Source: an uncultured marine group I thaumarchaeote (GTDB taxonomy: Archaea; Thermoproteota; Nitrososphaeria; Nitrososphaerales; Nitrosopumilaceae). Taken from it: DNA of 46,825 nucleotides. Shown piece by piece: positions 21,259 through 24,820 of this stretch. The stretch is taken from the NCBI GenBank assembly GCA_902566725.1, contig CACFJZ010000004.1, forward strand, positions 1 through 46,825. The letters run 5' to 3'. Both the position numbers and the translations under genes were made by a program. The notes under the pieces are model-generated. The model ran no database searches, was not told the origin of the DNA, and saw nothing but the letters and a program-made list of their open reading frames with translations. Each line of letters starts with the position of its first letter. The stretch's first letter is position 1.

Positions 21259-21492
21259 TTATTCAGAACTAGTTTCTTTATCTCTATTCATATGTCCTAA
21301 CAAAGCTTTGATCTCTTTTCCCATATTGTTAGGATCTTTTTCTAAATCTAACTTTTCAGTTATGGTATCTTTTAGCTGTAAATTCTCTAATTCAATTCGT
21401 CTTTTTTCAACACAGTGTAAATGATCACTATCTGTTGCTGAAATTCTTTTACAAATAGAACATGTTCCCATGGTACAGTTTAGTGACGCCAC
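21259..21492 (-). CDS. Small putative zinc-binding protein
   Basis: A 77-residue protein with CTMGTCSICK and HLHC spacing in its first 30 residues, which could form a small zinc site, followed by a charged helical tail. Translation may start at the second methionine (MGTCSICK), giving about 70 residues. It abuts the stop of the SDR gene tail to tail and its 5' end lies about 35 bases from the tRNA gene. Function unknown. Confidence 0.5.
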   Translation of the reverse strand: MASLNCTMGTCSICKRISATDSDHLHCVEKRRIELENLQLKDTITEKLDLEKDPNNMGKEIKALLGHMNRDKETSSE

Positions 21493-21601: not shown

Positions 21602-22969
21602 TTATCCTATTGAATTAATTCTTTGACTCTTCCAAATGTACCAACACGCAATACTGCGATTTGGTTTCCACCTTGCAGCATACTTTTCCAAAGTTATTGG
21701 GCTCGGTAATTCTTTTAATGAAAACATATCTCTAATTCCTTTTTGAATTCCTAAATCTCCAACAGGAAGTATGTCTGTTCTTTGTAGACAAAACATAAGA
21801 TAAATTTGTGCAGTCCAATTCCCAATTCCTTTGATTTTTGTTAACTCTTCGATAACTTGCTCATCACTTAACTTGGAAATTTTTCTAAAATCAATTTCTT
21901 TTTTGAGTACGAGTTTTGCTAATCCCTTTATGTAATTGATTTTGGTACCTGAAATTCCAATATCTTTTAATTTTTTATCCGTTGTATTGTAAACTTGTTT
22001 TGGGGTAGGAAACTTTCCATACAATTTTAGGAATCTCTTCGTAATTGCAGAGGCTGATGCTTCTGATAATTGCTGATAAATTATTGCCTCAACTAGTGTT
22101 TGAAATGGATTCTTCGTTATGCGCATACTACAAGGACCAATTCTTCTTATCAGTGGCTGTAATTTTTTATCTGAACGTAATAATGAAACCTGTTCTTCAA
22201 ACCTACCTGGGCTCTGTAATTTCAAACCTATAGTAATTTTCTCAAAATTTTCTAGTGTTGGATTTTTCTTATACTGACGAATTAGATCAATTATTGTTTT
22301 CTTTGTAGGAAGTTTTACTTTTTTTTGAATAATTTTTGCTAATCCTGTTCCAATCAGAATAGCTTGCGATGCACCTGTTACATTTGATGGTTTTCTATCT
22401 AAACTCGAACTTTCAAAATCAATAATCGTGTTTCTATTTTTACTAACAATAACATGTTTGTCTATTGTGCTTAGCTCTCCATGGTCTAGTCCCGCGTCAT
22501 CTAAAAGATAACATTCTCTTAAAACATTGTTTAAGACTGAACGAATTTCTTGAGATTTTGTTTCAGGCTTTTTTGCCCAATCAATAATTTTTTCACCTTC
22601 AATGTACTCCATTATCAAAAAATTTTTTGAATTTTTAACAAATTTTGGACCAATGTCTAGCTTATTTGCAGCTTTTAGTAATTTAGCTTCATTTGTCATA
22701 TTTTTTCTTGGCGAATCTACTCGTCGAATTTTTAATGCATAAACACCAGAATTATTTTTTGCAAGAACAACCATACCAACATATCCTTTTCCAAGTATAC
22801 GACATTTTTCAATTTGTAATGGACCTGTAAATGAAACATGAGTTATGCCCAGTTTCTTTAATTCTTTCAATCGTTTTTCCACTTCAGTTTCTTTTGCTTT
22901 AGGAAAACACAGAATTTTTTTGTAAGGTTCTTTTTTGAAAGCACTAATTGGTTGAAAATGTTGTGTCAT
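21602..22969 (-). CDS. Fusion of an archaeal Ser/Thr kinase-like domain and an AlkA-type DNA glycosylase
   Basis: Residues about 40-205 form a RIO/Bud32-like kinase domain: glycine loop LGKGYVG (59-65), K80 in YALKIRR, E94, hinge IMEYIEG, DHGEL at 162-166 and metal motif DFE at 184-186. Residues about 265-455 form a helix-hairpin-helix GPD glycosylase: IIYQQLS (297-302), hairpin IKGIGNWTAQ (379-388) and catalytic D405 in LPVGDLGI, as in 3-methyladenine glycosylase II. The reading frame is continuous, so both activities sit on one chain. It overlaps cca by 26 bases and is the last gene of the ligT-cca transcript. Confidence 0.85.
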   Translation of the reverse strand: MTQHFQPISAFKKEPYKKILCFPKAKETEVEKRLKELKKLGITHVSFTGPLQIEKCRILGKGYVGMVVLAKNNSGVYALKIRRVDSPRKNMTNEAKLLKAANKLDIGPKFVKNSKNFLIMEYIEGEKIIDWAKKPETKSQEIRSVLNNVLRECYLLDDAGLDHGELSTIDKHVIVSKNRNTIIDFESSSLDRKPSNVTGASQAILIGTGLAKIIQKKVKLPTKKTIIDLIRQYKKNPTLENFEKITIGLKLQSPGRFEEQVSLLRSDKKLQPLIRRIGPCSMRITKNPFQTLVEAIIYQQLSEASASAITKRFLKLYGKFPTPKQVYNTTDKKLKDIGISGTKINYIKGLAKLVLKKEIDFRKISKLSDEQVIEELTKIKGIGNWTAQIYLMFCLQRTDILPVGDLGIQKGIRDMFSLKELPSPITLEKYAARWKPNRSIACWYIWKSQRINSIG

Positions 22970-24284
22970 CAGTAGTTATCAGTTTTGAAATGCTCTTTTT
23001 AACAGATGTGCTTTGTTTGTCTTTTCCACTTTTAATTTTAAAACCACTTTTGAAATCAGGTCTTAATCCTTTTGGAATTCCAGAATCATTCATGTGATTT
23101 TTTATCAAATCATTAAGGTATGATTTAGCATTTTCATATCTGCGTGTTTGTAATGATTGTAATTTTCCTTCTTTATCTGTCCACATCAGTTTTGATTTTT
23201 TTGAATTAGTATGAATGAATTTTGTTGAAAAATCACTAGAAAACACATCCGGACCAGTTCTAATTTCATTTTTTGAAATTGCTAATGACTCTAACAAGAA
23301 TAACAAACTCGCATTTGTTTCATCATATGCAACTGCATCACTTCTTAGAACGTTAAATCCTTCTTTAATCATTTGAGATTCAAGAGAACTTACAGCTCGT
23401 TTAATCTGACCATAAATGATATCGTCACTTCTTTTTTTGTACTTGAAACTTACAACCAATGTATTTTTAGCCAATTCTACAGCGATCTTATTTTTTGATT
23501 TTTCTTTAAAGTATGAGATTGAACTCTTCTTTAAGAAATTTCTAGCAATTAAAATGAAATTTGTAACATTATGAATTGAAATTGCAGCACCCAAATTCCT
23601 ATTCCTATCTATTGGATCTATTATGACTATGGTTGAATCAAACTTTCTTGGCGATTCGCCAATCATTTCATTATTTTTCAATTTTGAGATTTTCTTTAAC
23701 ACATTTTCAAAACTTCCCAAATAGTAAACTAGAACTTCACAAACATAACCACTAAATCCTTGTTTAGCAATTTCTGCCCCATACATTCCATTAATTTTTA
23801 AAAAACATTTGAGAATTCTAATATCATCTTTCATTGAACCAGTTAATCTTTGACTCATAAATTCAGTATGAAATGTTGATCTGTCTGCAGCACTTTTCCA
23901 TTCACCTTTTTTGATATCATAACACGGAACAACGTTTATTCCAACTCCATCAATATCAGCTTCGACAAATGGATGTTCAGAGTATCTCACATATGGTTTA
24001 AATTTTTTTAGTGAATCAAAACCAATTTTTTTACCAATTGTTTCAAAATTTTTTTCTGATGTTGATTTTTTAAATTTAACAAAGATATCTATATCAATTT
24101 TTTCTGGCGTCCACGTTTCTTTTGCATATGAACCACCAAAATGTACTGATACAACTGATTTTTGCTTTTCAGCTTCTTTGTTTACCAAACTAAAAACCTG
24201 ATTAGCAATTTTGTCAACCTTTTTCCTTTGTGTATTATTTGGAATTGCTATTTGTTTTGATTTTTTTATTACATCACTTTTCAT
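22944..24284 (-). CDS. cca: CCA tRNA nucleotidyltransferase, archaeal class I
   Basis: Adds or repairs the 3' CCA of tRNAs without a nucleic-acid template. The nucleotidyltransferase head shows HFGGSYAKETW at 48-58 and the paired acidic residues DIDIF at 64-68, then the tail-domain features of archaeal class I enzymes. Length 446 is normal. It overlaps ligT by 4 bases upstream (ATGA-type) and the kinase-glycosylase by 26 downstream, so the three genes are translationally coupled. The nearby tRNA-Pro lacks encoded CCA, consistent with need for this enzyme. Confidence 0.92.
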   Translation of the reverse strand: MKSDVIKKSKQIAIPNNTQRKKVDKIANQVFSLVNKEAEKQKSVVSVHFGGSYAKETWTPEKIDIDIFVKFKKSTSEKNFETIGKKIGFDSLKKFKPYVRYSEHPFVEADIDGVGINVVPCYDIKKGEWKSAADRSTFHTEFMSQRLTGSMKDDIRILKCFLKINGMYGAEIAKQGFSGYVCEVLVYYLGSFENVLKKISKLKNNEMIGESPRKFDSTIVIIDPIDRNRNLGAAISIHNVTNFILIARNFLKKSSISYFKEKSKNKIAVELAKNTLVVSFKYKKRSDDIIYGQIKRAVSSLESQMIKEGFNVLRSDAVAYDETNASLLFLLESLAISKNEIRTGPDVFSSDFSTKFIHTNSKKSKLMWTDKEGKLQSLQTRRYENAKSYLNDLIKNHMNDSGIPKGLRPDFKSGFKIKSGKDKQSTSVKKSISKLITTDDTTFSTN

Positions 24285-24820
24285 CTTGCATTAACCTCCA
24301 GTAAATCTGAATACTCTGGCCCCTTTGGACTTAAAACGCTTTTTTTTAATTTAATTTTTGATATTGTCTCAGTACCAAACTCCATAGTCTCAAAATCTCT
24401 CATAATTGATGAAACATTCTCAATTCTCTTTTTTACTCTAAAAACTGTCAAATGTGGTTTGAATTTCTTATCTTTTTCAAAACCAATTGTTGTTAATTTC
24501 TTTCCTATTTCGTTTGCTAAATCAGTTAATTTTTCTGCACCATCCTTCTCCAACCCAATCCAAATTACTCTAGGGGTTCTCAAATTTGGAAATCCTCCTA
24601 CATTTTTCAATAATACTTCAAATTTTGGAAAAGATATCTCATTTAACAAATCTTTGACTTGTTGACATTCTGCATCATCGATTTCTCCTAAAAATTGTAA
24701 AGTAAAATGAATCTGATTAACTCTTGTAGGCTTTGCATCAATCTTTACATTTTTTTGAAATGTCTGAATTTTTTCTAATATTTCTTTATTTGAAATTTCA
24801 ACTGCAATGAATACTCTCAT
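24281..24820 (-). CDS. thpR: RNA 2',3'-cyclic phosphodiesterase (LigT/ThpR)
   Basis: 2H phosphoesterase that opens 2',3'-cyclic phosphate RNA ends, also seen as 2'-5' RNA ligase in vitro. The two family motifs are H38-F-T40 (HFTLQFLG) and a second HLT near residue 143 (HLTVFRV). Length 179 is typical. First gene of the ligT-cca-kinase/glycosylase set; LigT next to CCA enzyme is a recurrent archaeal pairing that suggests a shared role in tRNA end processing or repair. Confidence 0.9.
   Translation of the reverse strand: MRVFIAVEISNKEILEKIQTFQKNVKIDAKPTRVNQIHFTLQFLGEIDDAECQQVKDLLNEISFPKFEVLLKNVGGFPNLRTPRVIWIGLEKDGAEKLTDLANEIGKKLTTIGFEKDKKFKPHLTVFRVKKRIENVSSIMRDFETMEFGTETISKIKLKKSVLSPKGPEYSDLLEVNAR

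Follow-up and report, generated by a model that had tools for sequence, protein, structure and literature searches.

An ArkI-type RNA kinase domain and an AlkA-type DNA glycosylase domain joined in one gene of marine Nitrosopelagicus archaea

The fusion gene and its neighbours

The stretch of DNA analysed here, called the window, comprises 46,825 nucleotides of contig CACFJZ010000004.1 from an uncultured marine group I thaumarchaeote of the family Nitrosopumilaceae. On its minus strand, positions 21602-22969 form a single uninterrupted open reading frame of 455 amino acids with no internal stop. A sequence-only reading of this DNA had proposed that the frame joins a domain of kinase fold to an AlkA-type glycosylase with the core motifs of both intact, and this is borne out by the frame itself and by Pfam matches. 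From the alignment and the structural model, the kinase extends over about residues 1-251, the linker over about 252-257, and the glycosylase over about 258-455. The features of the gene and of its two neighbours are as follows.

21602..22969, minus strand: ArkI-AlkA fusion gene, 455 codons and stop (single open frame; equal length in 14 genomes; dN/dS well below 1 in both domains)
22217..22969, minus strand: ArkI-type RNA kinase domain, residues 1-251 (sequence, profile, alignment and structure matches)
22775..22795, minus strand: P-loop LGKGYVG, residues 59-65, in which K61 and G62 correspond to K32 and G33 of TkArkI (alignment)
22454..22483, minus strand: catalytic loop HGELSTIDKH, residues 163-172, where TkArkI has HGQ...KH (alignment)
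22412..22420, minus strand: metal-binding DFE motif, residues 184-186, in which D184 corresponds to D149 of TkArkI (alignment)
22199..22216, minus strand: short linker, residues 252-257 (slightly relaxed selection near the junction; confidently modelled)
21605..22198, minus strand: Mag1/AlkA-type HhH-GPD glycosylase domain, residues 258-455 (Pfam, PDB sequence match and structure match)
21791..21835, minus strand: helix-hairpin-helix IKGIGNWTAQIYLMF, residues 379-393 (alignment)
21755..21757, minus strand: catalytic aspartate D405, within VGDLG, which lines up with VGDVG of 2h56 (alignment)
22944..24284, minus strand: archaeal CCA-adding tRNA nucleotidyltransferase, overlapping the fusion gene by 26 nt (Pfam PF09249 and PF21133; order conserved)
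24281..24820, minus strand: ThpR/LigT RNA 2',3'-cyclic phosphodiesterase, overlapping the CCA gene by 4 nt (Pfam PF02834; order conserved)

Throughout the order, almost every sampled neighbourhood shows the gene order ThpR, CCA-adding enzyme and ArkI, and ArkI itself is nearly universal among the sampled genomes. Just downstream of the fusion gene, furthermore, we noticed a frame of 77 codons that contains a CxxC motif (window 21259-21492, minus strand); similar sequence also follows the kinase in two genomes, G022 and G027, both of which are without AlkA.

The full 455-residue chain was found, from its first residue on, in 14 Nitrosopelagicus genomes including the window's own, and the 13 other full-length homologues are 75-96% identical to the window protein. 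A fifteenth carrier, G013, has a broken N-terminus, with a 428-residue frame that matches from residue 90 on. The carriers include a complete single-contig genome of 1,232,128 bp (G025), and the named records for the fused loci, mostly Candidatus Nitrosopelagicus, were deposited independently by separate projects. Pairwise dN/dS was about 0.05-0.19 in the kinase half and about 0.04-0.12 in the glycosylase half, pointing to purifying selection on both, with selection among the fused genes slightly relaxed around the junction of kinase and glycosylase. A conserved start codon at this junction was sought among the fused genes and none was found, for which reason separate translation of the AlkA half from an internal start was rejected. 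Also, a frameshift or a lone error, which the sequence-only reading had named as grounds for doubt, was looked for and is absent: such an origin of the frame is rejected by the 14 intact homologues, one of them on a complete chromosome. The structure predicted for the full chain has a mean pLDDT of 94.9 and a pTM of 0.88. As far as the sequence tells, the fusion is a real chain and is maintained as one protein.

Identity of the kinase half

In searches of the PDB, the best match of the kinase half was TkArkI, from Thermococcus kodakarensis, with E 5e-16 when the single sequence was used and 3.8e-28 when a profile of 18 homologues was used. The profile search placed 8yv4 and 8yv5 next, both of which are labelled in the structure search as the G. 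acetivorans RNA kinase Ark1, so that the solved kinases nearest in the profile search, namely TkArkI and Ark1, are both RNA kinases. The model of the kinase half also matched these structures (TkArkI, Z 21.1 over 207 residues; Ark1, Z 17.9 over 168). ArkI, an archaeal RNA kinase, transfers phosphate to the 2'-OH of tRNA U47; the ArkI of N. viennensis, which is mesophilic, is active in E. coli lacking trmB and tapT (PMC9095486).

In the ArkI family, DFE replaces the DFG of protein kinases (PMC9095486), and in TkArkI HGQ replaces HRD. DFE stands in place of DFG in all aligned rows examined, the window protein included. At the HRD position HG is kept, and the third residue is E where TkArkI has HGQ; of the 34 unfused homologues of the order, 32 also have E here and the other 2 have Q. 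The C-terminal YKR motif reads YKK in the window protein, YK being invariant and the third position variable across the order. Mutants have revealed which residues of TkArkI matter, loss of R95 having only a mild effect (PMC9095486), and when the mutant-tested residues were mapped by alignment, 11 of the 14 were identical in the window protein (K32, G33, K51, E65, H130, K137, D149, N160, T162, Y200 and K201, in TkArkI numbering), while Q132 is replaced by E, R202 is replaced by K, and R95 is not conserved. Of the ArkI hallmarks HGE/HGQ, DFE, NxT and YK, the kinase half carries the last three, and the first in its HGE form.

The sequence-only reading had called this half a RIO/Bud32-like kinase. 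The kinase fold stands, as does a match to the broad Pfam family RIO1 above cut-off (residues 88-186, E 1.3e-6; Pkinase fell below its cut-off), but ArkI is the nearest relative. The NCBIfam scores of the window protein are far below the cut-offs (28.9 bits versus 125 for arch_bud32, and 15.8 versus 480 for Rio1, NF041310), and the true Bud32 and RIO1 are present as separate genes elsewhere in the genus; a Bud32 or RIO identity was therefore rejected. Sequence and fold together identify the kinase half as an ArkI-family RNA kinase by descent and not as a protein kinase.

When the tRNAs of the complete genome G025 were read automatically, U47 was found in 14 of the 17 five-base variable loops, which means that substrates for ArkI exist; U47 is common in tRNAs generally, and its presence is thus weak evidence. 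KptA is the known eraser of the 2'-phosphouridine 47 mark. When 61 genomes of the order were searched, of which 28 are near complete, no KptA/Tpt1 was found, and the phosphate mark on U47 may be irreversible or be removed by something else.

Identity of the glycosylase half

The Pfam family HhH-GPD matched residues 293-435 above its curated cut-off (E 1.3e-17), and residues 253-451 of the model matched Mag1 and Mag2 of S. pombe with Z of about 25 and 32-33% identity. The catalytic aspartate, D405, is invariant in the alignment, which has 8 rows of fused and 28 of separate AlkA, and the hairpin motif is kept too. While the complete genome G025 has two further HhH-GPD genes, they are only weakly like that of the fusion, which carries the sole AlkA-type gene of this genome. 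From this sequence and structural evidence, the C-terminal half is identified as a Mag1/AlkA-type helix-hairpin-helix glycosylase with its catalytic aspartate intact.

Distribution and origin of the fusion

AlkA of the fusion type is carried by 78 of the 161 sampled genomes of the family, and outside Nitrosopelagicus a fused frame occurs in only a single genome, G076. Comparison of the domain order among relatives, which the sequence-only reading had proposed as a check, thus gave a divided answer: the halves are fused in Nitrosopelagicus but are encoded by separate adjacent genes in eight other genera. In these eight genera arkI and alkA adjoin in 19 sampled loci (a count that leaves out G013, a fusion), always on the same strand and never in the same frame, and in the loci read the stop codon of arkI abuts or overlaps the start codon of alkA, for example GTGTAATGG. 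In two further genera, namely Nitrosotalea and another, a gene of about 450 codons for a cation-efflux-like membrane protein, identified by eye from the sequence, is inserted between arkI and alkA (L041:7109-8467; L088).

The fused clade of Nitrosopelagicus is supported in both the ArkI tree (SH-aLRT 96) and the AlkA tree (99). Three close relatives of this clade (G022, G027 and G008) have the kinase alone, and no AlkA relic was found after the kinase in G022 and G027. The second fusion frame, that of G076, is placed elsewhere in the trees; it has 498 codons (L080:3707-5086), lies in a GC-rich genome, and is known from this one genome only, unconfirmed. No other fusion was found outside Nitrosopelagicus in a 398-genome sample of the phylum. 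G076 belongs to the same genus as G031 (a chromosome of 2,045,086 bases); we take the genus to be Cenarchaeum and G031 to be Cenarchaeum symbiosum. G031 also has a second ArkI-like stretch of degenerate appearance (L110:2411-2926), with 37-39% identity and one stop.

Since alkA stands on its own right behind arkI in eight genera, with stop and start touching, the most likely origin of the fusion is a coupled pair of genes in which the arkI stop was lost and the frame changed slightly. By this route, the ThpR-CCA-arkI operon of the family would already have had alkA as its next gene, coupled in translation, and the loss of the stop together with the frame change would have joined the two genes in the streamlined Nitrosopelagicus lineage. 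If the frame of G076 is counted, the fusion has possibly arisen twice.

Function of the fused chain

We consider it probable that the fusion is a bifunctional enzyme, made from coupled operon genes, in which an ArkI tRNA kinase and a Mag1/AlkA DNA glycosylase act independently. The N-terminal half would phosphorylate the 2'-OH of U47 in tRNA at the expense of ATP, and the C-terminal half, as a monofunctional glycosylase, would flip alkylated purines, for example 3-methyladenine, out of the DNA and remove them; the main consequence of the fusion would be co-expression of the two activities at 1:1. While the identity of the families follows from sequence and fold, it is the activities and their independence that we infer, and two independent enzymes in one chain are most likely. 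A functional link between the halves, for example joint work on damaged tRNA, may nonetheless exist; it is conceivable because the adjacency in eight genera and the possibly two fusions exceed chance proximity. Two points weigh against the preferred reading: ArkI is important for hyperthermophiles in tolerating heat, whereas the fusion belongs to cool plankton, and the eraser KptA was absent from all 61 genomes searched. No paper was found when the literature was searched for ArkI together with a glycosylase.

Alternatively, one half might now be a non-catalytic module; the kinase, for example, could be an arm that binds nucleic acid on behalf of the glycosylase. In favour of this, known relatives of both domains are nucleic-acid binders, and the model of the full chain has high confidence, but all 8 fused rows examined retain the catalytic residues of both halves, barring conservative changes, and purifying selection on the two halves is similar; we regard this alternative as unlikely. 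It is quite unlikely, also, that the glycosylase half acts on RNA and removes damaged bases from tRNA as a quality control. The operon partners are all tRNA or RNA enzymes, and arkI and alkA adjoin in eight genera and are fused in one or two lineages, which would fit such a role, but the domain has an ordinary Mag1/AlkA fold whose nearest relatives act on DNA, a DNA role would be left vacant in G025 given its sole AlkA-type HhH-GPD gene, and our literature search turned up no AlkA acting on RNA. In an extended form, the fusion would be a tRNA guardian: its AlkA half would cut alkylated bases out of RNA, and its ArkI half would mark tRNA that is intact, or stabilise it. We hold this to be quite unlikely as well; if it is true, the AlkA family would include a base-excision enzyme directed at RNA.

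The sequence-only reading had suggested phosphorylation control of base repair, or self-phosphorylation; the kinase half would then phosphorylate the glycosylase half or other repair proteins. The physical fusion and the kinase fold are what speak for this idea, but the ArkI features, the matches to RNA kinases and the tRNA operon speak for a kinase of RNA, many genomes including the three close relatives of the fused clade have the kinase without an adjacent glycosylase, and we found nothing that points to phosphorylation of the glycosylase; we hold the idea to be very improbable. As for an assembly or sequencing artefact, the presence of two separate genes in relatives of other genera might suggest one, but the frame recurs at full length in 14 genomes, which stem from independent projects and one of which is a complete chromosome; this refutes the idea and reduces its chance to practically nil.

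The architecture of the chain is new, and its parts are known. A widely distributed thaumarchaeal "protein kinase" is re-identified as a member of the ArkI tRNA-kinase family, and this family is placed in an operon of tRNA enzymes that is conserved throughout the order, also in the cool plankton of the open ocean, where no eraser was detected. The job of ArkI outside hot environments becomes a testable question. Furthermore, a natural gene fusion links a tRNA modifier with an enzyme of DNA alkylation repair, and does so in Nitrosopelagicus, abundant ammonia-oxidising archaea of the sea.

Comparison with known systems

In terms of the kinase half, the closest known systems are TkArkI (PDB 7vnx) and G. 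acetivorans Ark1 (PDB 8yv4), with which the fusion shares the kinase fold, the HG of the HGQ/HGE motif, the DFE, NxT and YK motifs, a length of about 220-250 amino acids and an archaeal distribution; unlike them, the fusion has HGE and not HGQ, carries a glycosylase at its C-terminus and belongs to cool marine plankton, not to a hyperthermophile. The glycosylase half shares an HhH-GPD fold of about 195 residues and the catalytic aspartate with Mag1, Mag2 and the AlkA-like enzyme of Bacillus halodurans (3s6i, 4b21 and 2h56), and, like them, it lacks the separate domain that E. coli AlkA has at its N-terminus; only in the fusion, however, is the glycosylase attached to an RNA kinase. In the Nitrosopumilaceae with separate arkI and alkA, finally, the same families follow the ThpR and CCA genes in the same order as in the fusion, but as two proteins encoded mutually out of frame with touching stop and start.
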